Shown in pieces: positions 9,490 through 49,386 of a DNA stretch of 64,000 nt (position 1 is the first letter of the stretch; every line of letters begins with the position of its first letter). The DNA comes from Clostridium sp. HBUAS56010 (GTDB lineage Bacteria; Bacillota; Clostridia; Lachnospirales; Lachnospiraceae). The stretch lies in contig NZ_SULJ01000004.1 of NCBI RefSeq assembly GCF_007115105.1, positions 124,001 through 188,000 of the forward strand. Reading direction: 5' to 3'. The position numbers were made by a program, and so were the translations under genes. The notes under the pieces are model-generated. The model searched no databases. It was not told where the DNA came from and saw only the letters and a program-made list of their open reading frames with translations.

Positions 9490-9505
9490 GAGTTCCGGAT
9501 TTTTA

Positions 9506-9534
9506 TTGAACATCCATTTTGTTTCCTGTATGAT
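9506..9534 (+). promoter_or_regulatory. Candidate internal promoter for the DeoR regulator
   Basis: A -35 TTGAAC (9506-9511) and -10 TATGAT (9529-9534) with exactly 17 bp between them lie in the 69-bp gap after the permease. They would allow the regulator to be transcribed apart from the operon promoter. The TTCAAACA octamer is not present here. Confidence 0.5.
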
Positions 9535-9558
9535 AGAGAAGAGGCAGGAGGTAGAACG

Positions 9559-10311
9559 ATGTTAATGGCACAACGTCAGTTGAAAATTATAGATTTGATA
9601 CAAAAAAGGGGCAGTGTTCAGGTGGAGGAACTTGCCAGAGAACTGAAGGTCAGCACCATGACCATACGAAGGGATCTGGAAAAATTAAATGCCGAGGGCG
9701 CCATTGAACGATGCCACGGCGGTGCAGTCTACAAGCAGGAAGTCACCTATGCAGATAAGCAGATAAGCAACAGAATCATAAAGGAAGCTCTTGCCAGGAT
9801 CGGCGCCGGATATGTGAAAGCAGGTGATGCCATCTTTTTAGATGCAGGAACCACAACCTATGAAATAGCAAGACGAATCATGGAGATTCCAAACATTCTG
9901 GTGCTGTCCAATGATCTGGAGATCATTAAACTTCTCATGGGCAGCGGAGTGGATCTAATGATATGCGGAGGCAATGTCCAGAAAAGCACCGGGAGCATCC
10001 ATGGGTATTATGCTACACAGATGATCAGTCAGCTCCGCTTTGATATCGGTTTTTTCGGAACGGCTGCCATAGATAACCATTTAAAAGTCATGACTCCAAC
10101 CACAGATAAAGCCTTTTTAAAGAGGACGGTAGTCGAGCATTGCCGGCAATCCTTTCTTTTGGCTGACCAGTCTAAATTCAATCGGACCGCATTCACTCTG
10201 GTCAATGAGTTAACCGATTACAACTATATTGTAACCGACTACCAGTTCAGTGACAGAGAACAAACGCTGCTGCAAAAGAGCGGAACGAAACTCTTAGAAG
10301 CTTCCATATAA
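9559..10311 (+). CDS. DeoR-family transcriptional regulator
   Basis: The 250-residue protein has a DeoR-type N-terminal helix-turn-helix (RQLKIIDLIQKRGSVQVEEL then VSTMTIRRDLEKL, about residues 5-45). A C-terminal sugar-phosphate-sensing domain follows (DAGTTTYEIARRI near 95, SNDLEI, GFFGTAAID). DeoR proteins are mostly repressors released by a phosphorylated intermediate, here probably the acid-sugar phosphate made by the DUF1537 kinase. The ATG at 9559 follows AGGAGGT at good spacing; a second ATG two codons in is possible. It is last in the cassette and is followed by a strong terminator. Confidence 0.9.
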   Translation: MLMAQRQLKIIDLIQKRGSVQVEELARELKVSTMTIRRDLEKLNAEGAIERCHGGAVYKQEVTYADKQISNRIIKEALARIGAGYVKAGDAIFLDAGTTTYEIARRIMEIPNILVLSNDLEIIKLLMGSGVDLMICGGNVQKSTGSIHGYYATQMISQLRFDIGFFGTAAIDNHLKVMTPTTDKAFLKRTVVEHCRQSFLLADQSKFNRTAFTLVNELTDYNYIVTDYQFSDREQTLLQKSGTKLLEASI

Positions 10312-10364
10312 CAGAAATGCTGCAAACCGGGATTCTCATCCGATCTGCAGCATTTCTGTTTTTA
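10311..10364 (+). terminator. Intrinsic terminator of the acid-sugar operon
   Basis: A perfect 14-bp stem, ACAGAAATGCTGCA with TGCAGCATTTCTGT (10311-10324 and 10346-10359), is followed by TTTTTA. It starts at the last base of the DeoR stop codon. Confidence 0.9.
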
Positions 10365-10395
10365 TACTCATATATCATTGAAGCATATCCTTATT

Positions 10396-12438
10396 CTATT
10401 TCTCCTCTTTTTTCTTTCTCTTCACCGTCAAAGTCTCGTAACCGCCAATTTCTCCATTTTCCGTCAGTGCTCCCAGCAGAATCGTTTCCGATGCAATCTC
10501 CCTTACCGTTTCAGGGGCAAGCGTAACCGGATCTTTGCTGAAATTCTGAATAAATAAATATTCATAACCATCAGACTGCCTGGATGTCACTTCGATATCC
10601 TGGGGAATTTTCCCCTCTATAAGAGGTGTCAGACCGCCCTCTTTTACAACCTGTTCCACAAGATCATCATAACACTTCTGCTCAACATCGGCACAGATAT
10701 AATAAGCGGTTCCTTTTCCATACCGGTTCCTGGTAAGAGCAGGATATCCCTGATAGAAGTCGTCCTCATATACATACACCACCTCTGCTCCTTGAAGTTC
10801 AACCAGATCACAAAGGTTTTTGCACTCATACCGTTTCCCTTCATTTACCGCTCCAGGAGACACCATATGGTTACATTCTCCGTCATAGAGACCGTCAATC
10901 TCTGTGCTCCGGATTCCCAGGACCTCCGTCAAGTCATTGGGCACTCCCTGTAAAAAACAGCGGTCCCATTCATCTGCAATTCCAGACCAGTAAGTCATCA
11001 AAAGCTGACCTCCCTGTTCCACAAAGGTCTGAACCTTTTCCTCAATTCCACAACGGAACAGATAAAGCATGGGAGCCGCTACCAACTGATAATCCTCCAG
11101 ACTGTCTTCCATGGAAATCATATCTACGTTAAAGCCCTTCTTCCTGATAGCATGGTACATCTTTACTGCCGTATCATGATAGTAAAGCCCCTTATTACGG
11201 GGACCTTCTGCATCTTCCATTGCCCACCGGTTTTCGATATCATAAATAATGGCTGCTCTTGACTGAACCGTGGTTCCTCTTACTTCTTTTAATTGTTGAA
11301 GAGAATCTGAAACACCGCAGACCTCTTTAAAAACCCTGGTGTCATCCCTGCCGGAATGGTCAATCACCGCTCCATGGAACTTTTCCGAAGACCCTCTGCT
11401 CTGGCGTATCTGAAAATACATGACACTGTCAGAGCCATGGGCAATTGCCTGGAGAGAACTGAGCCGTAACATCCCAGGCTGTTTTAACTTACTGACCCCC
11501 TGCCAGTTGGTGCTGCTGGGACAGCATTCCATCAGTAGAAAGGGCTGCTTTTTCAGACTTCTCATATGGTCATGCTGCATTCCATTGTCTCTGGCTGTGA
11601 GAATTTCTCTTTCCTTATGCCACAGAGGATAGGTATCCCAGGATACCACATCCACTTCTTCTGCCAGCCGTTTGTAATTTAACCCTTTGTAATCATACAT
11701 CATGTTGGTTGTGACAGGCTGCGTGGCTCCCGCCTCTTTTAAGGATGCAATCTCCCACTTTGCAAAATCCGCAGTCTGTTCTGTAACAAACCGTTTCCAT
11801 TCCAGGTTTAATCCATGAACTTTATGCTCGCCAATGGAGGAAGGGCTTTCAATCTGATCAAAAGAGGAATAGATATGGCTCCAGAATGCAGTGCACCACT
11901 TCCGGTTCAGGTCTTCAATGGAGTTATATCGTTTTCTTAACCAGTTCTGAAAAGCTTTCTGGCACAGAGGGCAGTGGCATTCCCCTCCATACTCATTGGA
12001 TATATGCCACATAAGCACTGCCGGATGATTCCCAAAGCGTCTGGCAAGTTCTCCATTGATCCTGCGTACTTTTTCGCGGTACACCGGCGATGTATAACAG
12101 TGATTGTGTCTTCCTCCGAACAAGTTTCTTCTCCTGTCCTCATTTACCCGAAGCACTTCCTCATAACGGTCTGCCAGCCATTTAGGCCGTGCGGCAGAAG
12201 GCGTTGCCATAATTACAGAAATTCCATTTTCATATAGTTTGTTCACCCGTTCCATGAGCCAGTCAAATTCAAATCTGCCTTCTTCCGGCTCCAGAAATGA
12301 CCAGGAGAAGATTCCTACAGTCGCCTCATTTATTCCGGCTTTTTTCATGTATTCCACATCTTTTAACAGTATTTCCGGCTGGTCCAGCCATTGTTCCGGA
12401 TTATAATCACCACCATGCCACAGTTCCAGATTCTTCAT
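10396..12438 (-). CDS. Beta-galactosidase, glycoside hydrolase family 42
   Basis: The 680-residue protein has the GH42 (beta/alpha)8 barrel start WHGGDYNPEQW. The acid/base Glu149 lies in HISNEYGG and the nucleophile Glu304 in LLMECCPS. Four cysteines of the structural zinc site seen in many GH42 enzymes are present (Cys114, Cys154, Cys156, Cys159). A trimerisation domain and a small C-terminal beta domain complete the usual length. No signal peptide is present, so it acts in the cytoplasm on imported beta-galactosides. The ATG at 12438 follows AAAGGAG; an upstream extension of the frame to 12561 has no ribosome site. It is the last gene of an operon with an ABC sugar importer. GH42 enzymes often prefer plant- or host-derived beta-galacto-oligosaccharides over lactose. 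Confidence 0.92.
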   Translation of the reverse strand: MKNLELWHGGDYNPEQWLDQPEILLKDVEYMKKAGINEATVGIFSWSFLEPEEGRFEFDWLMERVNKLYENGISVIMATPSAARPKWLADRYEEVLRVNEDRRRNLFGGRHNHCYTSPVYREKVRRINGELARRFGNHPAVLMWHISNEYGGECHCPLCQKAFQNWLRKRYNSIEDLNRKWCTAFWSHIYSSFDQIESPSSIGEHKVHGLNLEWKRFVTEQTADFAKWEIASLKEAGATQPVTTNMMYDYKGLNYKRLAEEVDVVSWDTYPLWHKEREILTARDNGMQHDHMRSLKKQPFLLMECCPSSTNWQGVSKLKQPGMLRLSSLQAIAHGSDSVMYFQIRQSRGSSEKFHGAVIDHSGRDDTRVFKEVCGVSDSLQQLKEVRGTTVQSRAAIIYDIENRWAMEDAEGPRNKGLYYHDTAVKMYHAIRKKGFNVDMISMEDSLEDYQLVAAPMLYLFRCGIEEKVQTFVEQGGQLLMTYWSGIADEWDRCFLQGVPNDLTEVLGIRSTEIDGLYDGECNHMVSPGAVNEGKRYECKNLCDLVELQGAEVVYVYEDDFYQGYPALTRNRYGKGTAYYICADVEQKCYDDLVEQVVKEGGLTPLIEGKIPQDIEVTSRQSDGYEYLFIQNFSKDPVTLAPETVREIASETILLGALTENGEIGGYETLTVKRKKKEEK

Positions 12439-12482
12439 ACCAGTCTCCTTTCTCATAAACCACCCATCTTTTATGTACAACC

Positions 12483-13298
12483 TTATTTTACCGCACCTGT
12501 GATCCCTTCTGCAAAGCTTTTTTGAAGAATAAAGAAAATAATTACAGTGGGAATGGTACAAATCAAAACAGCCAGCATAAGAGTACCGTAATCCGTCACA
12601 TATCCCTCCGTAAGATTTGCCACCAGCATGGGCATGGTAATGCTTTTGGCATCAGACATAATTACTTTTGGCCAGAGATAACTGTTCCAGGCATTCATAA
12701 ACGTTATGGTCATGGCTGCTGCATAGTTAGAACGCATAGTGGGCACAAACATCCGGTAAAAAATCTGGAATTCCGTCAGACCGTCAAGCCTTGCCGCCTC
12801 CATAATATCAACAGGAAATGACCTGGCACTCTGCCGGAACATCATGATTAAAAACGGGGTGGAAATGGTGGGAAGAATAAAGCCCAGGGTACTGTTTAAA
12901 AGCCCCGCCTTTGAAAACATTTTATAAAGGGGAATCATGGTTGCCGCAAAGGGAACCATCATTGCCAGTAGAATCAAGGTCATAACCCGGTCCTTCGCCT
13001 TATTATGAAACACTTCAAATCCATAACCTGCAAGGGAACAGATAAATAAGGATAATGCTGTCATGGTGACAGAATACCGAAAGGAGTTAAAAAGAGCTGA
13101 ACTCACATTTTGGGAAGACAGCAGTTTTTCCCCATTATCCCAAAGAGCCGTTCCAAACAGTAAGGTTCCCCGGCTTACATCCACACTCTTATTGGTTGCC
13201 GCCACCAGCATCCAGTATAAAGGAAACGCAGAGATAAAAGATACAACAATTAAAAATGTATAAGCACCAATTTTCTTTCCTTTAGTCACGTTTATCAC
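12483..13298 (-). CDS. Carbohydrate ABC transporter permease (MalG/LacG type)
   Basis: The roughly 271-residue membrane protein has six predicted helices and the permease EAA loop (EAARLDGLTEFQIFYRMFVP) that contacts the ATPase. It pairs with the permease just upstream, which it overlaps by a few bases. GTG codons at 13298 and 13289 are both possible starts; the second has better spacing from GGTAGGTG. The operon carries no ATPase gene, so a shared MsmK-like ATPase elsewhere probably energises it, as in many Firmicutes CUT1 importers. Confidence 0.9.
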   Translation of the reverse strand: MINVTKGKKIGAYTFLIVVSFISAFPLYWMLVAATNKSVDVSRGTLLFGTALWDNGEKLLSSQNVSSALFNSFRYSVTMTALSLFICSLAGYGFEVFHNKAKDRVMTLILLAMMVPFAATMIPLYKMFSKAGLLNSTLGFILPTISTPFLIMMFRQSARSFPVDIMEAARLDGLTEFQIFYRMFVPTMRSNYAAAMTITFMNAWNSYLWPKVIMSDAKSITMPMLVANLTEGYVTDYGTLMLAVLICTIPTVIIFFILQKSFAEGITGAVK

Positions 13299-14178
13299 CT
13301 ACCTTTAATTGTACCCATGCAAGAACTGCTACCAACAGAAGAATTAAGTAGGACATGGCTGCCGCATAACCAAAGTTTGGTACATATTTGAAAGAAACAT
13401 TGTATATATAGTGAGACATGGTAATGGTGGCATTGGCAGGTCCTCCATTGGTTAAGTTCACAGATTCATCAAATAACTGCAATGTTCCATTGGTTGACAT
13501 AATCGCGGTCAGTAAAATAGTTGGCTTTAACAATGGGATGGTTATCCGTAAAAAAGACTGTACGGGAGAAGCCCCGTCAATTTTTGCCGCTTCATAAACC
13601 GTATATTCAATATTTTGCAGACCAGATAAGTAAAATACCATATTATAACCGGTCCACCTCCATATAAGTGCCAGAATTATTACAACTCTGGCACTGCCTG
13701 GATGCCCCAGAAAATTATATCCTGTAGAAAGGATTCCAAACTTGATCAACAGAACATTGACCAGCCCGTCTACCGCAAATAAAGAGCGGAAAATCACTGC
13801 ATAAGACACCAGGGAAGTGGCACAGGGAAGAAAAATAGCGGTACGGAATACCCCTTTGAATCTTAAATCCTTGTGATTAAGCAGGGAAGCCAGAATTAAT
13901 CCCAACATGAGCATCATGGGAACCTGAATAACCAGGTATATAAAGTTATTTTTCAGTGCCTGAATAAAAACTCCATCCTGTGCCATACGCAGGTAATTGG
14001 TTGTTCCCGCCCATCTTGTCTTAGCCCCGATTCCAGTCTGAAAGGACAGAATCAATGCCTGAATCATAGGGAGAAAGCTCATAACTGCAATCAACAATGC
14101 GGCAGGAGTTAAGAATGTCCAGCCCGCCAGACTCTGTTTCTGTCCCAGAGACAACTGCTTCTTTGAATTTCTTATCAA
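13282..14178 (-). CDS. Carbohydrate ABC transporter permease (MalF/LacF type)
   Basis: The 298-residue membrane protein has six helices and an EAA motif (YEAAKIDGASPVQSFLRITI) of the CUT1 sugar permease family. The start is TTG, five bases after GGAGGTGAA. It lies between the binding protein gene (16 bp upstream) and the second permease (overlapping). Together they form the channel of an importer whose cargo is probably a beta-galactoside, given the GH42 gene downstream. Confidence 0.9.
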   Translation of the reverse strand: MIRNSKKQLSLGQKQSLAGWTFLTPAALLIAVMSFLPMIQALILSFQTGIGAKTRWAGTTNYLRMAQDGVFIQALKNNFIYLVIQVPMMLMLGLILASLLNHKDLRFKGVFRTAIFLPCATSLVSYAVIFRSLFAVDGLVNVLLIKFGILSTGYNFLGHPGSARVVIILALIWRWTGYNMVFYLSGLQNIEYTVYEAAKIDGASPVQSFLRITIPLLKPTILLTAIMSTNGTLQLFDESVNLTNGGPANATITMSHYIYNVSFKYVPNFGYAAAMSYLILLLVAVLAWVQLKVGDKRD

Positions 14179-14193
14179 ACTTTCACCTCCTGC

Positions 14194-15471
14194 CTATTGC
14201 CCCATTGCAAACCTTACCGTATCTTCTGCCGTCTTGATCTCCGCTGCAATCTCTCCTCCTGCTACAATTTTTGTAATCGCCGTAGCCACTGCATCTCTTG
14301 CTTCATAATAATAAACACCCGTGTTGTTGGATGGCGCCTTTGACGCATAATCAGTAATCATGGCATAAACAGCTTCCCCACCAAAGAATTCCTGCGGTTC
14401 CTCATACACCTTACTATCTGCTGCCGGAAGATACGTTGTCATGGCACCAGATTTGGGAAGAATGGTTTCATACAGTTCTTTGCTTCCTGCAAAGGTTTTG
14501 CTTAAAAAATCAAATGCCAGCTCTTTGTTTTTACAGGCGGACATAACCGCCCAGCTAGAGCCGCCGTTGTTGGAATAATTTGTTGCCCCATCTACCTGCT
14601 CTAAACGGGGCATGTTGGTAATTCCCCAATTTCCTGCCTGATCCTCTGCAGTCTGTATGCTTGCCATGATCCAGCATCCGTTCATGGTTCCCCCTACAGT
14701 GTCGTTGGTCATGGTTCCTACATATTGATCCCAGTCATTGACCTCCACAAGTACTCCGCTTTTCACCAGAGAAGCGTAAGTCTCCATAACCCGTTCTAAA
14801 GTCTGGTTTCCTGCCATATCTGGGTTTCCATCCTGATCAAATAAACTTCCTCCGGCAGATTGAAGCATCATCATAATCAAGTCTGACTCTCCCGCCTGGC
14901 AGGAAAGCAGAGGTTTTCCCGTCTTTGCCAAAACCTTTTCTCCCATGGTCTGATATTCTCCCCAGGTAATATCTGTAAAATCTTCTATGGTATAACCTGC
15001 CTCCTTTAAAACATCGGTACGATAACAGGCTACTACTGTTCCGTTGTCAAAAGGCACACCATAATTTTTCCCTTCCACAACAGAATAGGCTGTTTTTGCT
15101 TTTGCAAATTTAGAAAAATCAACTCCGCTTTCTGTCAGATCTTCAAATGCGTCCGGATAGCTGATGACATTTTTCTGAAACGCATTATCCTGTAACAGCA
15201 AAATATCCGGAAGGGAATCCAGATTGCCTGAGGTTGCCGCTGTAGTCAGCTTCGTCTGTACATCAGCCCACGGGGTCTCCACCACATTGACTTTAACATC
15301 CGGATGTTCCTTTTGATAGACCTTTGCTGCTTCTTCCATGGCATAGACATTAAATGCCGGGTCCCAGCACCAGACCGTCAATTCATTGGATGCCTGTAAG
15401 TCTTTCCCCGGGCTGCATGCAGTCAAAAATGCCACAGCCCCTGCCAACAGAAATAATCCAACTTTCTTCAT
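14194..15471 (-). CDS. Extracellular sugar-binding lipoprotein of the GH42 operon
   Basis: The 425-residue protein has a lipoprotein signal (MKKVGLFLLAGAVAFLTAC, lipobox Cys19) and the fold markers of family 1 sugar-binding proteins: LTVWCWDPAF, KEHPDVKVNV, SLPDILLLQD and a late AGSKELYE. It captures the sugar outside the membrane for the two permeases downstream. The ATG at 15471 follows GAGGAGG; the longer frame to 15537 lacks a ribosome site. It is the first gene of the operon. The 150 bp upstream hold the ferritin terminator and presumably the promoter, but I found no well-matched -35/-10 pair. Confidence 0.9.
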   Translation of the reverse strand: MKKVGLFLLAGAVAFLTACSPGKDLQASNELTVWCWDPAFNVYAMEEAAKVYQKEHPDVKVNVVETPWADVQTKLTTAATSGNLDSLPDILLLQDNAFQKNVISYPDAFEDLTESGVDFSKFAKAKTAYSVVEGKNYGVPFDNGTVVACYRTDVLKEAGYTIEDFTDITWGEYQTMGEKVLAKTGKPLLSCQAGESDLIMMMLQSAGGSLFDQDGNPDMAGNQTLERVMETYASLVKSGVLVEVNDWDQYVGTMTNDTVGGTMNGCWIMASIQTAEDQAGNWGITNMPRLEQVDGATNYSNNGGSSWAVMSACKNKELAFDFLSKTFAGSKELYETILPKSGAMTTYLPAADSKVYEEPQEFFGGEAVYAMITDYASKAPSNNTGVYYYEARDAVATAITKIVAGGEIAAEIKTAEDTVRFAMGQ

Positions 15472-15615
15472 ACCAAACTCCTCCTCTATTATGATAATTT
15501 TTAAACGGACAGGAAATAATCCAATCATCTGTTTCATCTTACGATCAGATTGTCCCGAACATGCTTCTTTTTGGCATTTTACTTAATCGTTTTATCCTCA
15601 GATATAAGAAAGGGG

Positions 15616-15666
15616 TTAAAAAAGCTGCTCCCTATGATGCAGTTTCCTGCACCATAGAGAACAGCT
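15616..15666 (-). terminator. Intrinsic terminator after ferritin
   Basis: An imperfect 19-bp stem (15623-15641 with 15648-15666; right arm TGCACCATAGAGAACAGCT) is followed on the minus strand by a T run. It lies 29 bp past the ferritin stop. Confidence 0.85.
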
Positions 15667-15694
15667 TCTCTAAGTAAGATAAATTCTTATTCCA

Positions 15695-16207
15695 TTAAAG
15701 CACCAGTGTCGGAGGTGCATAAACTCTTGCAGCCAGTTCCGAATCAATTAAATAAAGCCCTTTGGCATCGTGTCCAAATAAATCATATCGTTTAATGATA
15801 TCATCCGTATTCTTCTCTTCCTCACTCTGTTCTTTTACGAACCAGTCCAGAAACTGCATGGTACGGTAATCTTTTAAATCATACGCAGCCCCATAAATAT
15901 CATGGATTGCCTTGGTTACTTTCAGCTCATGCTCATAAGCTTCTACCGTCGGCTGGCGGAAATCTTCATATATATAGTGAGGAGCTTTCACATCTCCCAA
16001 TTCAACTTTTGCACCATTGTTAAGAAGATAATCCATAAAGAGCAAAGCATGATCACGTTCTTCCTGGGTCTGGATCTTAAACCAGTTTGCAAATCCGTTT
16101 AAATTGTTTTCTGCATAATAGTTTGATATATCGAGATAAACATAAGCAGAATAGAATTCAAAATTAATCTGTTTATTTATTTTTTCTATAATTGTCTTAT
16201 CCAACAT
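15695..16207 (-). CDS. ftnA: Ferritin
   Basis: The 170-residue four-helix protein stores iron in a 24-subunit shell. Ferroxidase-site residues are visible: Glu in NFEFYSAY, the EERDHALLFMDY pair, and QFLDWFVKEQSEEEKN in helix 4. Length is usual for bacterial non-haem ferritin. The ATG at 16207 follows GAAAGGGG; an in-frame TTG two codons earlier is less likely. It stands alone with its own terminator. The upstream 180 bp are AT-rich; no clear Fur box was read. Confidence 0.95.
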   Translation of the reverse strand: MLDKTIIEKINKQINFEFYSAYVYLDISNYYAENNLNGFANWFKIQTQEERDHALLFMDYLLNNGAKVELGDVKAPHYIYEDFRQPTVEAYEHELKVTKAIHDIYGAAYDLKDYRTMQFLDWFVKEQSEEEKNTDDIIKRYDLFGHDAKGLYLIDSELAARVYAPPTLVL

Positions 16208-40632: not shown

Positions 40633-40715
40633 TACTATTTTTTATTTTATGCACTTTTTACAATGTGACTCTTTCTAAAACGAGAAAAAAGTCTGATGAG
40701 TAAAATTTATGCACA

Positions 40716-40757
40716 TGAAAAAGAACCAGGTTCTCTTTGATGGGATCCTGATTCTTT
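40716..40757 (-). terminator. Intrinsic terminator of the pilus operon
   Basis: An 11-bp stem with one wobble or mismatch, AAAGAACCAGG with CCTGATTCTTT (40720-40730 and 40747-40757), is followed on the minus strand by a T-rich run. It lies 63 bp past the last sortase gene. The rest of 40633-40819 is AT-rich and holds nothing else I recognise. Confidence 0.75.
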
Positions 40758-40819
40758 TCAAATATCTTCCATTATTCTTTTAAAAATAACACTTCTGCCT
40801 TACTTTTCTGGTTCTTTTA

Positions 40820-41575
40820 TCACTCTTTCCCCAGTCTGTTTTCCTGCCGCAATATTCCTATGACAAGATAGCGCGCATCATCAAAATCGTAGCTGCAGGT
40901 TGAAAGTACGACAAACCGGTCTTCACCGTTATACCTGGCACTGCTTAAAAAAGTAGTATTGGCATCGGCATATTCCAGCAGAGAGTCTAAGTTCCTTTCA
41001 TACATAAATGCCCTGTCTCTCCACTCTCCTGCACTGACCAAACAGCCATATTTTAAGTCTATGCGATAATTCTCCTGCTCCGTATAAAGGTACAAAAAAG
41101 GGTGCTGATCAAAATATTCCTGCTTTTTATAATTGGAAATGGAACCAAACATTTTGCCGGATTTCATGTTATGCCCGTATACAATGTTTAATTTTCCGCT
41201 AAAATCCTGAGGATTGTTAAAATCAAGAAACAAAGATCCATTCTCATTATAAGTTCCATCAGGCAGATGATGAAGATACCAGTTGTAATCCTCTGCCTCC
41301 ATAACCGGATAGTCAATGGGAGTATCCGGTCCGTAAAGCCAGGCACCTGCCGCCGTATTTACCTTTTGAAGCTCTGAAAAATCTACGGAAGATGGGGAAT
41401 AGAATGGGGTGTTGACGGGAAGACGGACCTTGTTTTGCAGTTCTTCATAAGAGTTATCTCCCACCTTATATACCTGTGAATTCTCATGTAGCCTGTATCC
41501 GGAATAAAGAACCATAACAATGGAGACTGCCAGCAGTAACCTGGCAATTGTTCTGTGGTTTTTTTTCTTTTTCAT
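40820..41575 (-). CDS. Class B sortase (second sortase of the pilus locus)
   Basis: The 251-residue transpeptidase has one N-terminal membrane helix (ARLLLAVSIVMVLYSGYRL). The class B active site is His135 in IVYGHNM, Cys227 in VLSTCSYDF and Arg235. It lacks the C-terminal membrane helix of the other sortase. It may anchor the finished fibre or the PKTG-bearing protein to the cell wall, while the other polymerises; the division of labour is inferred. The ATG at 41575 is preceded by AAGG; the frame extends upstream without a ribosome site. Last gene of the operon, 10 bp after the minor pilin. Confidence 0.92.
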   Translation of the reverse strand: MKKKKNHRTIARLLLAVSIVMVLYSGYRLHENSQVYKVGDNSYEELQNKVRLPVNTPFYSPSSVDFSELQKVNTAAGAWLYGPDTPIDYPVMEAEDYNWYLHHLPDGTYNENGSLFLDFNNPQDFSGKLNIVYGHNMKSGKMFGSISNYKKQEYFDQHPFLYLYTEQENYRIDLKYGCLVSAGEWRDRAFMYERNLDSLLEYADANTTFLSSARYNGEDRFVVLSTCSYDFDDARYLVIGILRQENRLGKE

Positions 41576-41585
41576 TTCTTGCCTT

Positions 41586-42770
41586 TCAATACTCTTCCTG
41601 CTTCTGGTATCTGCTATACACCAGATAACCGGTGCATCCAGTCCCAATAAGAAGACCTGCTGCCATCATTGCCCGATAGAGCGTATGATCGGTATCATCC
41701 CCAGTCTTTGGTCCCATCAGTCCCTGCTCCTTGTTCTGTTCTTTATCTCCTTTTGGAACCTGATTGTCCAGATTGGAGGAGGTCTCCTCTTCTTCATCCT
41801 CTGAGCCTTTTTCTATGATTTTGGAACCGGTATCAGAATGACTGTTACCTGTACTTTTTCCTCCTCCGCTTCCTTTGTTCTCGTATTTATTTATAAAAAT
41901 ACAGGAGTCTATCTGTTTCTTTGCCTCATTGGTGACTACCCGGTTAACAACCAACTGTCCGTCTGCGTCCTTCACCATATCTGTAATGGTATAAATAACC
42001 GGGTCATATGTATAACGGGATTCTCCTGTATTTACTTCCGTAATTTTGTAATAATAATTTCCCTCTTTTTGATAGCTCCATGTACCAAACTCTCCTTTTC
42101 CAGAGCCGGCAATGGAAATGGTCTTAATCCCTTCCACACTTCCCTCAGGCATAGGACCGTCTGGGTCTTCTGCCTGGAGTTGAAATAAAAAAACACTGGT
42201 TTTGTGAGGATTTCCAGAGACGGTTTTATGGACCGGCGGATCAGTCATATCTTCCTTACTGCTTGGCAGCGGAGTATAGCTGTGTCCAAAGTGCAAAATT
42301 TCCGCTTTATCTCCTGTATTTTTTGATGTAATAAAATACCTTGCAGAAAGTTCTTCTCCATGACTTTCCACATAAACAGAAATAATGTAAACCTGGCTGT
42401 CATAGCTATAGCATGGAGAATCAGAGTCAGTGACTGCTTTGATCTGATATTGATACAGGCCCGTCTGCCCAAAAAGGATTTTATTCAAATCCTTATCATC
42501 TGTCCCATCAATTGCAAAGGAATAAATCCCATTTACACTTCCTTCTGGCATAGGGTTTTGCGGTAAAAGGGGAGTCAGTTCATAAGAAACTGCGGTATTT
42601 ACCTGTAAAGCAGAGCTGTTCTTTACAAAAACCTGATCTGCCCTTAATTCCACTTTTACCGGTTCAGACGCCTGGCAGGAAAACACGGAAGAAGAGTTTG
42701 CCGAAAAAAGCAGCAAAAACATACACATGAAACCCATTTTTATGAAATTTATAGTTCGGAAAAAGCACAT
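41586..42770 (-). CDS. Minor pilin / anchor subunit with two Spy0128-like pilin domains
   Basis: The 394-residue surface protein has a signal peptide (to about residue 34). Two repeats of about 110 residues each carry the PMPEGSV-GI-SIAGSG pattern of Spy0128/FctA pilin domains, where intramolecular Lys-Asn isopeptide bonds form. An acidic Ser/Gly stalk (GSGGGKSTGNSHSDTGSK onward) precedes a sorting signal: PKTGDD, a hydrophobic helix (AMMAAGLLIGTGCTGYLVY) and a basic tail. The motif PKTG resembles class B sortase motifs of clostridia. It starts 4 bp after the sortase stop codon, using AGAGGTG that overlaps that stop. Confidence 0.87.
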   Translation of the reverse strand: MCFFRTINFIKMGFMCMFLLLFSANSSSVFSCQASEPVKVELRADQVFVKNSSALQVNTAVSYELTPLLPQNPMPEGSVNGIYSFAIDGTDDKDLNKILFGQTGLYQYQIKAVTDSDSPCYSYDSQVYIISVYVESHGEELSARYFITSKNTGDKAEILHFGHSYTPLPSSKEDMTDPPVHKTVSGNPHKTSVFLFQLQAEDPDGPMPEGSVEGIKTISIAGSGKGEFGTWSYQKEGNYYYKITEVNTGESRYTYDPVIYTITDMVKDADGQLVVNRVVTNEAKKQIDSCIFINKYENKGSGGGKSTGNSHSDTGSKIIEKGSEDEEEETSSNLDNQVPKGDKEQNKEQGLMGPKTGDDTDHTLYRAMMAAGLLIGTGCTGYLVYSRYQKQEEY

Positions 42771-42774
42771 GATT

Positions 42775-43668
42775 TCACCTCTTTGTGCGTTTCTTTATAA
42801 GGATCAGGAACACAGGGATAATGAGAAAAAGAAATGGGATTCTTCTCCACACACTTTTCTGCGGATCCACAGAGACTTTTTTAGCCGCATGACCGCCCTC
42901 TTCATCAGAATATTCATCTGTTTTGTTTTCATCTGTAATTCTTCCAATTAAAATGTCTCTGCCATTGGTGGAATCTGAGGAACAGGTACTTAATAAAATA
43001 ATACGGTCCTCCACACTTACCCCAATGTCTCTGGTATACATCGCTTTATCAAGAATATTCTGCAGATAAGCCTGCTGTGCTTCCTGCCCTTTGATACGGG
43101 GTGCAAAAATGCTTCGATCGTAAGCATCTGTATGAACAAAAGCAAAAAACTCCAGCCCATGCTGCTTACCGCCGTAGTACAGGCTTCCATAAGCACGTTC
43201 TTCAAAAAATTTCCTGTTGCCAAACTGTTCAATGGGACCGAACATTGCCTGTTTCTCCATGTGGTGCCCATATAAAATACTGTTAAAATCCTGGAATTGC
43301 TTGTCATTTAAATAATCTAAAAATATAGAGCCCGACAAAGAATAGGACCCATATACATCAGTAATCACATACTTTTCATTGTCTTCTGCCTGAGTAACGG
43401 GATAATCAATGCGGGTACCGGATACAGTGAGCCAGGCAAATACCTCTGGATTAATGTTCTGAAGTTCAGAAAAGGAGACACTTTCTTCTGAACTTGGTTT
43501 ATAAACCGCGTACTGCCTGGCATCTGCTGCCCTGTATATCTGTGCGGAGTCCCATATTGCATAGAGAGCAACTGCAACCAAAGCCAGAATCATAACCAGC
43601 ACGGTAAGATCAACCAGACTATTTGCTATTTTTATTGCTGTTGAGCCTGCTTTTTTTCCTGCTTCCAT
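42775..43668 (-). CDS. Class B sortase with C-terminal membrane helix (candidate pilus polymerase)
   Basis: The 297-residue protein has an N-terminal membrane helix (VDLTVLVMILALVAVALYAI) and the class B catalytic triad His135 in LYGHHME, Cys229 in LLSTCSS and Arg237. A second membrane helix (IPFLFLIIPVFLILI) lies at the C-terminus. Two-helix topology is typical of pilus-polymerising sortases. It lies directly after the major pilin, as SrtC2 follows FctA in the streptococcal FCT-3 island, where a class B enzyme also builds the pilus. Confidence 0.92.
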   Translation of the reverse strand: MEAGKKAGSTAIKIANSLVDLTVLVMILALVAVALYAIWDSAQIYRAADARQYAVYKPSSEESVSFSELQNINPEVFAWLTVSGTRIDYPVTQAEDNEKYVITDVYGSYSLSGSIFLDYLNDKQFQDFNSILYGHHMEKQAMFGPIEQFGNRKFFEERAYGSLYYGGKQHGLEFFAFVHTDAYDRSIFAPRIKGQEAQQAYLQNILDKAMYTRDIGVSVEDRIILLSTCSSDSTNGRDILIGRITDENKTDEYSDEEGGHAAKKVSVDPQKSVWRRIPFLFLIIPVFLILIKKRTKR

Positions 43669-43710
43669 TGGGATAAGGGACTCCTTTCATACTGTATTTT
43701 CTGTCTGTAG

Positions 43711-45003
43711 TTAATAATCCGTATGGGAACGGCGTCTTCTGTTGGATTTCACAACAATAAATGCTCCGAATGCTCCCAAAGCAAGAACCAGAATCATGAT
43801 AAAGGGAAGATTATCAATCATGATACCAGTAGGGGTAATGGTTCCGGTATAAGTGTTGGTAAAGTCCGCAAGGTTGGTATTTTCCCCAATCACTCTCTGC
43901 TTACTGGATGCCAGATCATTTGTAGATAAAGATTCTCCCTCTCCCGCACTGTTGGTTACCGGAGTTCCGCCATTTTCTGTAATCATAACAGCAGGTGTAT
44001 ATCCTGGATTGCCGCTCTCTATTGCCTCATATTTTGAGCCTACATATGGATTGATTAATACAAGCTTCTGACCATGTTTTAGTTTTACAGTTGTCTGGGT
44101 CCCTGGAACAATCTCAAAATATTTATAACCAGAACCATCGGTCTCCAGAGTTTCCTGGGTATTTTCCAAAGATGTAACAACGGTACTGCCCTCTACTACA
44201 TATGCTTTATAGGTAACTGTATCTTCAACCACTTCCGGCTTTGTTACTGTTAACTGATAATCAAAGTATTTGCTCTTATCTCCGAAATCACCTGCAACGG
44301 TTTTTCCTATAGCCAGTCCCTGCTGAGACGGGTCTGTAGGATCGGTTCCTCCAGTCTGTCTGGTAAAGATATTTGTAAAAACAAGTCCGTTGGAATCTCC
44401 CGGGGTCGGATCTACCTTGTCCCCTGCCACACCTGTATTACCCGGATCTGCAACCGCTATGACTGCAGCAATTGCAGATACATAGGGACCTGATTCACTG
44501 TTTTTAACATAGAAGGTAATGGTATATTCCGCTCCGGAATAAGTCATATTTTCCCCGGATTGTAATGAATATGTATTCTGTTTCTCTTTGATATGGTAGG
44601 TGTACTGTCCTGCTCCCGGAAAGACGATTCCCTCCAGTATGTTTTCACTCTGTTTCGAGAGAACCATTGTTTCTCCATCAAGCGTTCCTGTATCCGCTGG
44701 TGCGTAAGAAATGGTCTTGTCTCCAATAACAGGCATCCGGTCCAGTTCTGTCTGGCTTGTCTCACCATTTAAACTGTCCTTTGTAAATTCAAAGATAAAA
44801 TCGGCTGTAGGAGGGGTTGTTCCTTCCGGCATCTTCAGTTTCTTTGTAATGGAAGCGGTGAGAGAATTTCCAGGTGTTCCGCCTGTAACAGGTTCTCCTG
44901 CTGCCAGAGCAGAAAAAGAGGTTAAAAAGCACACCACAAAGGATAGCACCAGTGCCAGATATCTTTTTTGAATCTTTTTGTTTTTCTTCGTTTTCATTAT
45001 CAT
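43711..45003 (-). CDS. Major pilin candidate (Spy0128/FctA-type backbone subunit)
   Basis: The roughly 430-residue protein has a signal peptide (YLALVLSFVVCFLTSFSALAA). A first pilin domain of about 180 residues (ADFIFEFTKDSLNG, FPGAGQYTYHIKE, YTITFYVKNS) is followed by a second (LAIGKTVAGDFGDKSKYFDY, GQKLVLINPYVG). The sorting signal is TPTG, a hydrophobic helix (LPFIMILVLALGAFGAFIVV) and an Arg-rich tail. There is no LPXTG; xPTG instead matches the VPTG-type motifs read by streptococcal class B pilus sortases. The ATG at 45003 follows AAAGGGAT. The gene sits between the signal-peptidase homologue and the first sortase, the usual place of a pilus backbone. Confidence 0.87.
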   Translation of the reverse strand: MIMKTKKNKKIQKRYLALVLSFVVCFLTSFSALAAGEPVTGGTPGNSLTASITKKLKMPEGTTPPTADFIFEFTKDSLNGETSQTELDRMPVIGDKTISYAPADTGTLDGETMVLSKQSENILEGIVFPGAGQYTYHIKEKQNTYSLQSGENMTYSGAEYTITFYVKNSESGPYVSAIAAVIAVADPGNTGVAGDKVDPTPGDSNGLVFTNIFTRQTGGTDPTDPSQQGLAIGKTVAGDFGDKSKYFDYQLTVTKPEVVEDTVTYKAYVVEGSTVVTSLENTQETLETDGSGYKYFEIVPGTQTTVKLKHGQKLVLINPYVGSKYEAIESGNPGYTPAVMITENGGTPVTNSAGEGESLSTNDLASSKQRVIGENTNLADFTNTYTGTITPTGIMIDNLPFIMILVLALGAFGAFIVVKSNRRRRSHTDY

Positions 45004-45078
45004 ATGATCCCTTTCTGCACAAGGCATCGGAAATAAAACCGCTGTGCCCTGTGTCTTGAATATTTTTCTTTTGCTTTT

Positions 45079-45588
45079 TTATATATTCCTGCGCCGGAAG
45101 ATGCCCATAACTTTTCCCATGGTATCAGAAATGTCCACCGCACCGTAAATACGGCTGTCTGCGGCATTGGTTCTGTGGTCTCCAAGAACAAATACTTCGC
45201 CTTCTTTTAGAGTCACTGGAAATTCAACGCCCTCCTCATACCGGTTTGTGGAAACATAAATACCAGGTTCCTGCTGTATGGCTCCATTAATCATCAGACC
45301 TTCTTGTGATATGTCCACCGTATCACCTGCCAAAGCAATCACTCTGCGTACCTGGATTTTTCCCTGGTATTTTAAAACAAGCACATCCTGGGCAACGTAA
45401 CGCTTATCCAGACGGTAAAAAAGCACCAGGTCTCCATCTTTTATGGCTGGATTCATAAAAGAATCCCCATTGCGGCAAAAACCAAACATAAAGGTAAACA
45501 ACAGTACAAACGTAAGGCATATTGCCCCGATTTTTGCAAAGAGAAATAAAATCTCTGCAAAGAGTGAAGGGCTTTTTCTCTCTGGCAT
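45079..45588 (-). CDS. SipA-like signal peptidase I homologue of the pilus locus, active site altered
   Basis: The 169-residue protein has one N-terminal membrane helix and the S26 signal-peptidase fold. At the nucleophile box it reads GDSFMNP (41-47) where active enzymes have G-x-S-M-x-P, so the Ser is shifted by one residue or replaced by Phe. At the general-base box it reads VRRVIALAGD (80-89) where active enzymes have a Lys-Arg pair, so Lys becomes Arg81. The late box GDHRTNAADSR is kept. In Streptococcus, pilus SipA lacks the catalytic dyad and acts as an assembly chaperone. This protein may be similar, or may be an active variant. It starts 1 bp after the adhesin stop codon. Confidence 0.82.
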   Translation of the reverse strand: MPERKSPSLFAEILFLFAKIGAICLTFVLLFTFMFGFCRNGDSFMNPAIKDGDLVLFYRLDKRYVAQDVLVLKYQGKIQVRRVIALAGDTVDISQEGLMINGAIQQEPGIYVSTNRYEEGVEFPVTLKEGEVFVLGDHRTNAADSRIYGAVDISDTMGKVMGIFRRRNI

Positions 45589-45589
45589 A

Positions 45590-48433
45590 TCAGCAAATCT
45601 CCTTATATTTATGGTGAAAAATCTTTATACTTAAAAAAACAGCCAATACCATAACAGCCATTCCCAAAAACAGGAAGTATTCTTCCTTTCCTTTAGCCAC
45701 TCCGGTTGGAACTACATGAAAATAATTACTTGTAAGTTCCATCTTATGAACCCCTTTCAAGGTATGGATTCCTGAATATGCAAAGATGCTTTCATGGGAA
45801 TAATGATTAAGATTTCCGGTATTTAATAAGGTTGCCGAATATTCCTGGTCATTTAATCTCCATTGATGCAGAGTATCAGGGGCTGTAATATAATTATCCG
45901 TAAGCACAGGCTGATTTCCAAAATCTATGATTCCGGATATAAAAGCCTCCTCATTGGATATCCAGGAACGAAGTGCATTGGTTTTGATCTTTACCGACGC
46001 ATTGGTATTACTTTTCATTACATAAGCCTCTTTGTCATTTCTGCCATTGAATAAAACAACGCTCATAGGCTTGTCAAAGGTAATGCCTGGATTGGAAACC
46101 AGGGAAGAAATCTGGATCAGAGTTTCTGCCGCCGTGTTGTTTCCAGCAATGATATTTATTTCCGAATCTTCATCAATACGGATACTGCCGGCATTCACCA
46201 TGCAATTATCTGCCCTGGCGGCGGAACCTTCATAATCTGCCACATACGTCCACTTGCTCCCTCTTTCTGCCGTTATATGCTTCACCGTAAGGTAGGCTGT
46301 GTCACCTGTGTCGTTGCTCCAGAAGCTTATGTCTGCTTTTAAATCAAACACAACACTGGCATATTCACCGATTGTTAAAGCTTCAAGCCGGTTATAGTCT
46401 GTAAGAAATCCATTCCCCCCATTTACATGGTGGTATTCCAAAGTTCCATTCCGTCCCACACTCAGCTCTGCTTTACAATTCGCAATCATTCCCATAAAAC
46501 CAGTTGTAAAGACTTTAGACTTGGTTCTGCCTGCTTCATCCCAGATTACAAGAGAAGCTTCCTCTTCTACTCTGATAAATCCGCTGCCTCCCCAGTAAAG
46601 ATAGAAAATCGGGTCCACATCTCCTTCTGCAGGCGAGTCCTGTTTTGTAATAGTGCTATCCCCTTCAAAGGTAATAAAATTAGCAGCTACAACTTCGGAA
46701 GCATGGGTATCCTGCCACGGGGCGCCATGAGATGCCGAACCTATTTCAGGTAAGCTGCCTCCGTATCCATCAACATCAACTCCCTCACCGCCGGAACCAT
46801 TCCGATAACTCATGGTAATATCACAGTCAATCAGGCGGACCTGAGGATTATAGACCGGATATATTGCAATGTCTCCCATTCCTGGTCCCTTGTATGTAAC
46901 AGAGTCAAAGGTAATACTCACATTAGGGGTTACATTGCCAGCCGGGAAATAACACCCGACCTCACTGCTTCCATACCAGGTAAGGTTGCTCATGGTAAAG
47001 GATTTCACAGAATTTGTGGTGGGAAAATAGAAATTGCCTCTTTCCACAATGGTATGGGGCCAGTTGAATATAATCTTATGACCATTTCCTTCGATTAAAA
47101 AGCTGCCGTCACCTGCATTGGTCTTTGTACCTACAAAAATCCCCTGTGGCTGACCATAATAACCGGGCTGATCCTGGCTCTGATAACTGGAATTCCACCT
47201 TCCGGTTCCATTGGTCATACCATACTCAATTACAATATCTTCCTGCAGTGAAATTTCCCATACGGTATCGCTGTTCACTGCCTCAATAAAATCTTTTGCG
47301 GTATTTACGGTTACTGACATCGCCTGGGGCGGCTCTGCAAGATGGAGTGCCCCATTAATTCCGTCAATGATGACCTCCTCTTCCTCAGATACAACAAGGG
47401 GATCACTGTATGCCGCCAATAGATCCTCACTGATTTCTATCCATTCAAATTTATTATCCCCCGCAATTCCCGATACAGGGAGCAGGTATTCAATTCCTCC
47501 TATTGTTTCAGCAGTGATGCCAACTCTGTAACTGCCTGGCTGGAGATTTTCGAACCAATAAGTTCCGTCTTCTCCGGTTTTTGTAGTTTGCAGCGGATTG
47601 TCCATATCCTCATCCGGATAAAGAGAAACAGAGTAGCCAAGGATCCCTCTTTCCTCTTCATCTATGATGCTGTTGGAATTTTCATCAAGCCACAGCGTTC
47701 CACTGATTGCCTTTCCCAAAGGAGCCTGCTGTAGATTAACCGTTATAAAAACTGGTTCCCCTTCATAATCATGATGTCTGATCTCTCCATTAAAAATATA
47801 GGTTCCCGCCACTTCACTGTCATATTCATCACATGCCCAGATCACAGGAACGTCTTTGACTTTTCCATATATACTGCCGTCTTCTTCACATGCAAACCAT
47901 GCAGATCTTTTGCCATTGTAAGAACCATAGATACGATACGAGACTTCTCCCCAACGATCTGTATAGGTATAAAGTCCTTCGCCTGCTGCCTCATATCCAT
48001 AAAGCTTCTTTGGCTGTTTTAGAACAAAGCCGGTCTGTTCCTCCCCATCAGGAAATACATCTGCGGAGGAAGGAGTCCCAAATGTACTGTCTGATTCTTC
48101 TGGATCTGGATCTGATTCCAATGCTATCCCATCTGAGGGTGTAGCTTTGTTCTCAGGTTTTTCTAACTTCTTAGATTTATGAGGGGGATCTATTTTTTCA
48201 AACTCTTCTTCTGTTTCCTCCAGTTGTACCACTGCCCGCAAAACCTTTGGCAAGTCTGGTTGTTTTGTACCTTTTGGCACAGCCACTTCCTTTGCCATAT
48301 CTGCAGTTTCGAGAGAGAGAATGGTCAATTGTGAAACCGATGTCTGTGCTTTTGCTGTAATAAAAAACAATGAAAATGCGGAAATAGCTGCCGTAAGGTA
48401 CCATACTTTTTTTAAATTCCTGAATCTGTTCAT
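45590..48433 (-). CDS. Large sortase-anchored surface protein, candidate pilus tip adhesin
   Basis: The 947-residue protein has a signal peptide (VWYLTAAISAFSLFFITAKA) and an acidic low-complexity stretch (about 70-135). An SdrD-B/Cna-B-like domain follows (ISGTLWLDENSNSIIDEEE, with a calcium-type DENSN pattern, about 245-345). A long region of beta-helix character (about 375-870; FITFEGDSTITK, SIRIDEDSEINIIAGNN) is of a kind seen in adhesins. The sorting signal is VPTG, a hydrophobic helix (FLFLGMAVMVLAVFLSI) and a basic tail. It is the first gene of the pilus operon, where tip adhesins usually lie. The ATG follows GGAGGTG. No ligand can be predicted. Confidence 0.85.
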   Translation of the reverse strand: MNRFRNLKKVWYLTAAISAFSLFFITAKAQTSVSQLTILSLETADMAKEVAVPKGTKQPDLPKVLRAVVQLEETEEEFEKIDPPHKSKKLEKPENKATPSDGIALESDPDPEESDSTFGTPSSADVFPDGEEQTGFVLKQPKKLYGYEAAGEGLYTYTDRWGEVSYRIYGSYNGKRSAWFACEEDGSIYGKVKDVPVIWACDEYDSEVAGTYIFNGEIRHHDYEGEPVFITVNLQQAPLGKAISGTLWLDENSNSIIDEEERGILGYSVSLYPDEDMDNPLQTTKTGEDGTYWFENLQPGSYRVGITAETIGGIEYLLPVSGIAGDNKFEWIEISEDLLAAYSDPLVVSEEEEVIIDGINGALHLAEPPQAMSVTVNTAKDFIEAVNSDTVWEISLQEDIVIEYGMTNGTGRWNSSYQSQDQPGYYGQPQGIFVGTKTNAGDGSFLIEGNGHKIIFNWPHTIVERGNFYFPTTNSVKSFTMSNLTWYGSSEVGCYFPAGNVTPNVSITFDSVTYKGPGMGDIAIYPVYNPQVRLIDCDITMSYRNGSGGEGVDVDGYGGSLPEIGSASHGAPWQDTHASEVVAANFITFEGDSTITKQDSPAEGDVDPIFYLYWGGSGFIRVEEEASLVIWDEAGRTKSKVFTTGFMGMIANCKAELSVGRNGTLEYHHVNGGNGFLTDYNRLEALTIGEYASVVFDLKADISFWSNDTGDTAYLTVKHITAERGSKWTYVADYEGSAARADNCMVNAGSIRIDEDSEINIIAGNNTAAETLIQISSLVSNPGITFDKPMSVVLFNGRNDKEAYVMKSNTNASVKIKTNALRSWISNEEAFISGIIDFGNQPVLTDNYITAPDTLHQWRLNDQEYSATLLNTGNLNHYSHESIFAYSGIHTLKGVHKMELTSNYFHVVPTGVAKGKEEYFLFLGMAVMVLAVFLSIKIFHHKYKEIC

Positions 48434-48530
48434 CTTTCACCTCCTTCCACACAAAATCCTTATCTTCTGGTTCACAATTTTTATCTTTTCTCTCTCATGA
48501 TTGATTGGAAATACTTTACTTTTTTAGTGT

Positions 48531-48591
48531 AGTATAAAAGTGTTTTATTTTGTAATTCCATGTACTGAATCAATAAATTTATGTACTGAAT
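48531..48591 (-). promoter_or_regulatory. Pilus operon promoter with 11-bp direct repeats at 21-bp spacing
   Basis: A -10 TATACT (48531-48536, minus strand) has a poor -35 (GGAATT, 48554-48559). Directly next to that -35 are two perfect copies of ATGTACTGAAT (48560-48570 and 48581-48591), 21 bp apart. Paired direct repeats of this length and spacing beside a weak -35 are usual for LytTR-type activators, though other regulators are possible. The 98-bp leader ends in the GGAGGTG of the adhesin gene. Confidence 0.55.
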
Positions 48592-48628
48592 ACCTGTCCA
48601 TTTATATCCCAGCCATCAGAATAGATAC

Positions 48629-48671
48629 AAAAAGACCAGGTCCCGTTCATGTTCCGGTTCCTGGTCTTTTT
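48629..48671. terminator. Intrinsic terminator after the GntR gene
   Basis: A perfect 12-bp stem, AAAAAGACCAGG with CCTGGTCTTTTT (48629-48640 and 48660-48671), is T-rich on both strands. It lies 19 bp past the gntR stop and shields the pilus promoter from read-through. Confidence 0.9.
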
Positions 48672-48690
48672 CAATCCGTATTGCTATATA

Positions 48691-49386
48691 TTACCGTCTG
48701 ATAATCACATTCAGATCTATATTAATCAGATTAATATGTCTTTTTGCATAAAGCTCTGCCACTTCTTCATCCCGTGCCTTCAGCGCATCCACAATATCCT
48801 GATGAGCTTTAATGGCATTTTTTGCATTCTGGGGTACCTGAAAGGTTTTTAAACGAAAATCCCTGATACATTCGTCGATCTTCTTACAAATGAAAATCAT
48901 CATCTTATTTTTGCTGCATTCCACAATCTGTCTGTGAAGCTTTTCATCATACTTCGCCATAGCTGCAATGTCTTCTTCCTCCACAGCCCGGATAAAACGC
49001 TGATGAATCCGCTCAATCTGCTCCAGTTCCAGATCTGTGGCACGCTTGGCAATCAGTCTGGCACACAGGGGTTCCACCGCACTGCGGACCTCAATATAAT
49101 CCTTTAACTCCACTTCATTTTTTAGAAACCATTCTGCCAGTTCTTCCTGTCCAAGTTCCTTTTTACTGACCAGGAATGCCCCTCGTCCCGGCTTAATTTC
49201 AACCAGCCCCTTGGCCTCTAAAATACGGAATGCCTCTCTGACCGTTCCCCGTCCTACCGAGAGTTTCTCGCACCATTCTTTTTCTGTAGGTAATTTTTCT
49301 CCGACCTGTATTTCATCGGCTGCAATAAATTCCTTCATACTGTTTACTACCTGCTGCACAATCGGTATTCTGGAAACCTCTGTCAT
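48691..49386 (-). CDS. GntR-family regulator, FadR/FCD subfamily
   Basis: The 231-residue protein has the GntR winged helix (GEKLPTEKEWCEKLSVGRGTV then REAFRILEAKGLVEIKPGRG, about 28-70). An all-helical FCD effector domain follows (YIEVRSAVEPLCARLIAKRA; metal-ligand pattern around YDEKLHRQIVE and KAHQDIVDALKARD). FCD regulators usually sense sugar acids or other small carboxylates. The gene stands alone. Half-sites TTGTATGATGT (49431-49441) and TTGTACGATGT (49505-49515) upstream resemble the operators of the transketolase/ABC operon, so that operon may be its target. ATG at 49386. Confidence 0.92.
   Translation of the reverse strand: MTEVSRIPIVQQVVNSMKEFIAADEIQVGEKLPTEKEWCEKLSVGRGTVREAFRILEAKGLVEIKPGRGAFLVSKKELGQEELAEWFLKNEVELKDYIEVRSAVEPLCARLIAKRATDLELEQIERIHQRFIRAVEEEDIAAMAKYDEKLHRQIVECSKNKMMIFICKKIDECIRDFRLKTFQVPQNAKNAIKAHQDIVDALKARDEEVAELYAKRHINLINIDLNVIIRR

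Follow-up and report, generated by a model that had tools for sequence, protein, structure and literature searches.

The stretch of DNA examined here (the window) comprises 64,000 nucleotides of Clostridium sp. HBUAS56010 (Lachnospiraceae; contig NZ_SULJ01000004.1, positions 124,001 to 188,000), in which the original prediction had placed a six-gene pilus locus at 40820..48433. The list of open reading frames (ORFs) of the window contained all six genes at these positions, intact and on the minus strand, in the order tip, SipA, backbone, first sortase (Srt1), minor pilin and second sortase (Srt2) (Table 1), and the FCT-3-like order claimed for them (tip-SipA-backbone-sortase-minor) was confirmed. 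The backbone ORF opens at 45027 (438 amino acids, aa) with a likely ATG at 44997 that leaves 428 aa, and the Srt2 ORF opens with TTG at 41647 (275 aa), the likely ATG being at 41575. Gene spacing is 1 bp (tip/SipA), 51 bp (SipA/long backbone ORF; 81 bp to the likely ATG), 42 bp (backbone/Srt1), 4 bp (Srt1/minor pilin) and 10 bp (minor pilin/likely ATG of Srt2), and the six genes appear to be packed like one operon. Pfam and NCBIfam models assigned SdrD_B and Pectate_lyase_5 to the tip, Peptidase_S26 to SipA, FctA and DUF7601 to the backbone and two FctA stretches to the minor pilin. The predicted VPTG/TPTG sorting motifs were present as VVPTG on the tip and ITPTG on the backbone, while the GPKTGDD signal of the minor pilin had been overlooked. 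Judged from these genes, it is very probable that this is a SipA-dependent class B sortase pilus locus.

Table 1. Positions of the pilus genes and associated features in the window
Feature	Position	Strand	Remarks
Tip-like surface protein	45590..48433	-	947 aa; SdrD_B and pectate-lyase-like (beta-helix) domains, VVPTG signal
SipA-like pseudo-signal-peptidase	45079..45588	-	169 aa; Phe at the Ser position, Arg at the Lys position
Backbone pilin	43711..44997	-	FctA and DUF7601, ITPTG, two Lys-Glu-Asn triads, candidate linking Lys194
Srt1, class B sortase of pilus-polymerase type	42775..43668	-	297 aa; hydrophobic segments at N- and C-terminus
Base-like minor pilin	41586..42770	-	394 aa; two FctA-like stretches, GPKTGDD signal
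Srt2, second class-B-type sortase	40820..41575	-	own clade; C-terminal membrane segment absent
Inserted block, approximate extent	40668..48690		flanked by genes for a sugar-binding protein and a gntR-type regulator
Direct repeat ATTCAGTACAT, two copies 21 bp apart	48560..48591	-	upstream of the tip gene; possible regulator site

An ortholog of SipA (67-70% identity) was found in five of 24 other genomes of the same genus, one of which held two copies, and the six congener loci (L040, L042-L046) had the gene order of the window throughout. Because six loci in five congeners keep this order with sortases 55-62% identical to those of the window (Srt1 55-61%, Srt2 55-62%), the arrangement is not due to chance. 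The corresponding identities were 38-46% for the backbone, 40-47% for the minor pilin and 25-27% for the tip. For wider comparison, genome contigs were scanned with a profile of a seven-sequence Srt1 alignment and the best 80 of 89 confirmed loci were used. The gene-order set consisted of 85 loci: 78 (80 minus two duplicates), the window and the six congener loci. L060 and L065, the same contigs as L045 and L040, were excluded from locus counts and trees, and L041, which lacks Srt1, from the counts of gene order, base signals and Srt2.

The two sortases were of class B and not of class C, as had been predicted, but they were not of the same kind: Srt1 is of the polymerase type, and Srt2 falls in a separate clade. 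Srt1 scored 198.9 bits with TIGR03064 (cut-off 153.75), and its best solved relatives were 4y4q and 3psq. Srt2 was similar in sequence to SrtB structures, and none of the class A, C, D and E sortase models was listed for it at E 0.1. With the Pfam Sortase model both remained just under the cut-off of 26.6 (25.3 and 25.9). The catalytic His, the Cys of the TC motif and the following Arg, whose roles were taken from Spy0129 (PMC3019223), are kept in both. In the tree, the Srt1 clade (82 rows) had support of 99/99 and the Srt2 clade (21 rows) of 100/100, with long branches meeting at the join. A C-terminal membrane segment was found in 70 of the 78 Srt1 proteins with a recognised TC motif (seven of the 85 had none) versus none of 19 Srt2 proteins. 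When Lactobacillales sequences were added (a quick tree without bootstrap, with 22 chosen Srt1 rows out of 82), both sortases of the PI-2-type loci L199 and L200 came out as sisters inside the Srt1 clade, the sortases of the FCT-3-like loci L203 and L204 also fell inside it, and Srt2 stood apart. L199 was taken as PI-2-type by its flanking M20 peptidase and ferrochelatase genes and its vWA tip, and L200 by the same gene set. Furthermore, SrtG2-type proteins reached 251-252 bits with the Srt1 profile versus 97 with the Srt2 profile. The tree and the profile scores argue against Srt1 and Srt2 being the SrtG1/SrtG2 pair of PI-2, and this possibility was rejected. The L203 and L204 sortases (242 and 241 aa) stop at the catalytic domain, and both sortases of L199 and of L200 end hydrophobic.

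Our survey of the 85 loci revealed that Srt2 tracks the xPKTGD base pilin. Srt2 was nearby for 20 of 33 xPxTG base pilins, for none of 15 VKTGD-like ones and for none of 21 motif-less ones, the last class mixing membrane-type ends with cut or split ORFs. Where 2.6 kb or more of sequence follows Srt1, the figures were 18/28, 0/12 and 0/15. The base tail was unclassified in 16 of the 85 loci, including L063, where Srt2 is present and the end reads DGPKTGDD; the flag in L119 was a second Srt1-type sortase, and in L046 the pattern caught an upstream APQTGV, the real base end being IPKTGD. The residue after TG was I, V or L in all 64 backbone motifs and in 20 of 22 proline-containing tip motifs, and D or E in 29 of 34 proline-containing base motifs. 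This signal survey dropped tips under 100 bits and minor pilins under 40 bits, and the motif was not found in 17/81 backbones, 11/36 tips and 17/69 minor pilins; the pattern without proline admitted only D or E after TG, and its 18 minor pilins and three tips stand outside the counts of 29/34 and 20/22. Signals of the form xPKTG-Asp have been tested as substrates of wall-anchoring class B sortases: SrtB of C. difficile cleaves SPKTG and PPKTG at the T-G bond, with native following residues improving its activity (PMC4155245), and SrtB of B. anthracis was assayed with a peptide containing NPKTGDE (PMC11987632). In the Lactobacillales loci L201, L203, L204 and L205 the base ends are LPQTGE, LPFTGE or LPETGE, and no Srt2 was seen.

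Some loci carry sortase and base pilin in a single frame. A contig of a Eubacteriaceae metagenome-assembled genome (MAG) joins base pilin, GPKTGD signal and Srt2 in 630 aa (L099:9927-11819), and in two Bifidobacteriaceae MAGs Srt1 is fused to a base pilin with an LPFTG end (L108:121-2184 and L118:8962-10935). These fusions add weight to the pairing of sortase and base, though the one with Srt2 is a single MAG contig. Some class C pili have dedicated tip-loading sortases, and Srt2 might similarly process the tip, or its joint with the backbone, instead of the base. However, most tips and backbones have a common xxPTG-[I/V/L] signal, as distinct from the xPxTG-[D/E] of the base, and the presence of Srt2 follows the base signal, so we hold a role at the tip to be very unlikely.

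In our interpretation, which we consider likely on the gene evidence, the operon would give rise to a covalent three-component pilus that is polymerised by Srt1 with SipA and anchored to the wall at its base by Srt2. After export, Srt1, aided by a non-catalytic SipA, would cut tip and backbone at their xxPTG-[hydrophobic] signals and link each of them to a lysine in the backbone subunit that follows (candidate Lys194). The product would be tip-(backbone)n, with an internal Lys-Asn bond that may stiffen each backbone domain. The minor pilin would be joined last and end growth. Srt2, as a wall-anchoring class-B-type sortase, would then cut the GPKTG-Asp signal and fix the finished fibre to peptidoglycan, a step that is the job of SrtA in streptococci.

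It could also be that Srt2, like SrtG2 of PI-2, is a polymerase with a redundant or auxiliary role, and that another class-B-type sortase of the genome anchors the fibre. The PI-2-type islets L199 and L200 have two sortases in tandem, SrtG2 was called unnecessary in a review (PMC10548224), and the genome of the window holds five sortases, all with the class B model as best match, of which three lie outside the locus and could anchor the fibre. Moreover, 13 of the 33 xPxTG base pilins (10 of 28 with at least 2.6 kb) had no Srt2 nearby, and therefore another sortase can serve that signal. However, SrtG2-type proteins favour the Srt1 profile and are sisters of SrtG1, whereas Srt2 forms its own clade, lacks the C-terminal membrane segment of Srt1, is encoded after the base pilin and exists in a natural fusion with it. 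We thus regard an auxiliary polymerase as rather unlikely. Two of the other sortases have notable neighbours: in L050 a repeat adhesin of 2569 aa that ends in GEKTGDN (8143-15852) stands next to a class-B-type sortase (7263-7748) whose first usual start leaves 161 aa although the class B match extends further upstream, and in L051 a class-B-type sortase (8235-9014) adjoins a 394-aa protein with an MPKTG end (9011-10195).

Besides the spare sortases and the base pilins without Srt2, several points weigh against anchoring by Srt2 and against the pilus interpretation more broadly. With TIGR03064, Srt2 scored 143.2 bits, under the curated cut-off of 153.75, though this was by far its best family. 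As for SrtA, TIGR01076 (a general sortase model) had no match in the genome at E 0.01, while three of 14 controls matched, two of them over the cut-off; the Pfam sortase model recovered four of the five sortases and nothing else, and the absence of SrtA rests on these two models, of which the Pfam one missed Srt1. The counts of signals and sortases are not independent, because the loci share ancestry. GPKTG itself was not among the tested SrtB substrates in the available parts of PMC4155245 and PMC11987632. The tip of the window lacks the DUF7601 domain of its relatives, and its incorporation is therefore less sure. In addition, polymer formation, internal bonds, the linking lysine, the division of labour between the sortases and adhesion are inferred from the genes.

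SipA of the window was, as predicted, a SipA homologue: among solved structures, SipA (4n31) and LepA (4k8w) of group A Streptococcus (GAS) were its best matches (83.1 and 80.8 bits), versus 32.1 bits for true signal peptidases. In the alignment both the catalytic Ser and the catalytic Lys are replaced, while companion and housekeeping signal peptidases keep both, and an active signal peptidase was rejected as its function. Across 71 loci, with one SipA protein taken from each, the Lys position was Arg in 57, Gly in seven, Glu in four, Ser in two, Leu in one and Lys in none, the profile that collected them having been built from Arg-bearing proteins, which is a mild bias; the fragments in L107 and L120 lack the Lys column and stand outside the 71. 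The Ser position was retained as Ser in 27 of the 71. The lysine loss is thus a steady mark of the cassette SipA, and it agrees with published work in which SipA, though no protease, is needed for polymerisation (PMC4049620). Nine other signal peptidases of these loci keep both Ser and Lys, and eight of them adjoin the tip gene. Apparently active copies of this kind lie just 5' of the tip at L042:5346-5888, L043:11764-12306, L044:13544-14086, L045:11665-12219, L046:11985-12578, L057:3484-4041 and L058:1285-1839. Five of the six congener loci have this companion upstream of the tip, and the sixth is cut by a contig end, the same genome having a signal peptidase beside a tip fragment on contig L041. 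The window locus has none, and its own genome yielded no close match to the companion, the best besides SipA being at 58.1 bits and 35% identity.

The backbone had been described as having Spy0128-like domains; however, it resembles PitB of PI-2 more closely than the major pilins of GAS. Its predicted structure is folded like the pilin of a pilus shaft, and the backbone combines the FctA/PitB fold with a sorting signal, as taken to characterise a shaft pilin. The candidate linking lysine is conserved, and the two triads are candidate sites of internal bonds. Two tandem backbone-type genes lie 5' of Srt1 in two Coriobacteriia MAGs (L090:6013-8784 and L092:6101-8818). In L068, L072, L077, L090, L092, L093, L101 and L102, mostly Coriobacteriia and Family XIII MAGs, the base-like protein after Srt1 has a hydrophobic end and no recognised sorting signal, which suggests a membrane-held base.

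For the tip, both Pfam domains were above their cut-offs, no Cpa or thioester domain was found at E 0.1 and no vWA domain was found by Pfam. The prediction of a beta-helix-type tip unlike Cpa was therefore borne out as far as Pfam goes, the beta-helix being assigned by Pfam only; a sequence search found no relative among solved structures. SdrD_B was common to the tips of the window and of the two congeners scanned (L042 and L043), the middle part being variable. In five of five relative tips scanned, but not in that of the window, DUF7601 lies near the C-terminus, the same family as the second domain of the backbone. Judged by architecture only, the tip is likely the adhesive part. The missing DUF7601 and companion signal peptidase would fit sortase-anchored adhesins, or the remains of a pilus locus, with proteins displayed singly on the wall and no fibre. 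However, none of the six frames is broken, His, Cys and Arg are present in both sortases, the backbone is modelled with a shaft fold and a conserved candidate lysine, and related streptococcal and C. perfringens loci have been published as fibre-forming, which makes single display improbable.

Most pilus loci in the literature consulted use class C sortases with anchoring by SrtA, and pili built with a class B sortase and SipA are established for GAS FCT-2/3/4, PI-2 and C. perfringens (PMC7900414, PMC3178606, PMC10548224, PMC8088525). GAS FCT-2/3/4 (cpa, sipA, fctA, class B SrtC1/SrtC2, fctB) share with the window a base pilin after the sortase, a non-catalytic SipA, a class B polymerase and VPTG-type signals. 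However, in GAS the base is attached by SrtA through an LPXTG-type signal (PMC7900414), there is one class B sortase and a Cpa tip where the window has two sortases and no Cpa-type tip, and Spy0129 is reported to have no C-terminal membrane anchor (PMC3019223) whereas Srt1 has one. PI-2 (pitA, sipA, pitB, srtG1, srtG2) provides the nearest backbone, but L199 and L200 have no base pilin and their sortases are in tandem, whereas the base pilin of the window sits between its sortases; their two sortases pair as sisters in the tree, while Srt2 is outside the SrtG1/SrtG2-type clade; and the vWA domain of the L199 tip has no counterpart in the window. The C. perfringens NE pilus (VR-10B: CnaA, FimA, FimB, signal peptidase, class B sortase) is alike by gene content, the window also having a signal peptidase homologue, a class B sortase and three pilins in a predicted operon. 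Pilin mutants, ladders and transmission electron microscopy showed that fibre, and its authors proposed that a class B sortase serves the base pilin and pointed to a second srtB nearby (PMC8088525). That srtB2 lies upstream of the locus in opposite orientation and the NE tip has a collagen-binding domain, unlike the window (PMC8088525). The original prediction of a less-studied type in gut anaerobes was right in that little is known, but the type is not unstudied, as electron microscopy and immunoblot of the NE pilus show (PMC8088525). Wall-anchoring SrtB of B. anthracis and C. difficile also acts on xPKTG followed by Asp (PMC4155245, PMC11987632), and Srt2 resembles SrtB structures; those enzymes, however, anchor single proteins and not a pilus base. 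No report of the cassette in Lachnospiraceae or of a dedicated Srt2-type anchor was seen among the matches listed in openly licensed PMC literature. The locus is thus closest to PI-2 in its backbone and to FCT-3 in its subunit set, and, by the features that mark each of them, a member of neither; the core fibre type was already known, and what is distinctive and new is the second sortase together with a base signal that matches it.

The gntR-type and sugar-binding proteins flanking the block are 81-89% identical in the congeners having them, and the two genes lie directly side by side in nine of the 19 gntR loci of congeners; in the other ten the sugar-binding gene was not within the adjoining 1.5 kb. 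Homology to the empty site ends at window position 40653-40667 and restarts at 48691-48701 (eight of nine compared). Given this break at both edges and the empty site of congeners, the block looks like a clean insertion. Four SipA-bearing congeners with a gntR match have the cassette elsewhere than at the window site. An ancestral fixture of the genus was rejected, as only five of the 24 genomes have the SipA ortholog and nine congeners show the empty site. In the tree, Srt1 of the window was at least as near to copies from Oscillospiraceae, Clostridiales and Desulforamulus as to those of congeners, and horizontal spread of the cassette appears likely. Upstream of the tip, the ATTCAGTACAT pair is the only exact pair of its kind found in the genome and was not seen upstream of the seven related cassettes compared; its 9-bp core and 12-bp gap resemble the consensus of LytTR-type sites. 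LytTR had seven matches in the same genome, and no promoter was listed on the minus strand within 257 bp upstream of the tip.

The best 80 of the 89 confirmed loci span Lachnospiraceae, Oscillospiraceae, Family XIII, Erysipelotrichaceae, Peptostreptococcus, Enterococcus, Vagococcus and Desulforamulus, together with Coriobacteriia, Propionibacteriaceae, Bifidobacteriaceae and one MAG labelled Dehalococcoidia (MAG labels as deposited). The order sipA-backbone-srt1-minor was seen in 51 of 68 loci, with another gene after srt1 in eight and a different order in nine, while 17 of the 85 had too little upstream sequence; since loci were picked by Srt1, these figures tell how often the cassette accompanies Srt1. 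It was present in 12 of 299 family genomes (one for each genus, with that of the window among them; E 1e-60) and, in the order to which Enterococcus belongs, in 12 of 395 (the two starting genomes included; E 1e-50). The cassette is thus patchy across many Bacillota and some Actinomycetota and not limited to few genera.

On balance we lean towards the view that the locus belongs to a SrtA-independent, self-sufficient pilus machine with two class-B-type sortase clades, a SipA-assisted Srt1 for xxPTG-[hydrophobic] signals and an Srt2 that anchors the base via xPKTGD. The cassette would be mobile among Bacillota, its SipA-Srt1 core reaching Actinomycetota, and the base ending may have co-evolved with the anchoring route, be it Srt2, a sortase elsewhere or a membrane-retained base. 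A review of GAS pili states that the function of SipA is still unknown (PMC7900414), and the cassette in many anaerobes, with the lysine missing from all 71 SipA copies aligned, provides a large natural data set for its role. The pairing of Srt2 with the base pilin, in turn, makes a concrete prediction of how the fibre would be anchored where SrtA was not found.

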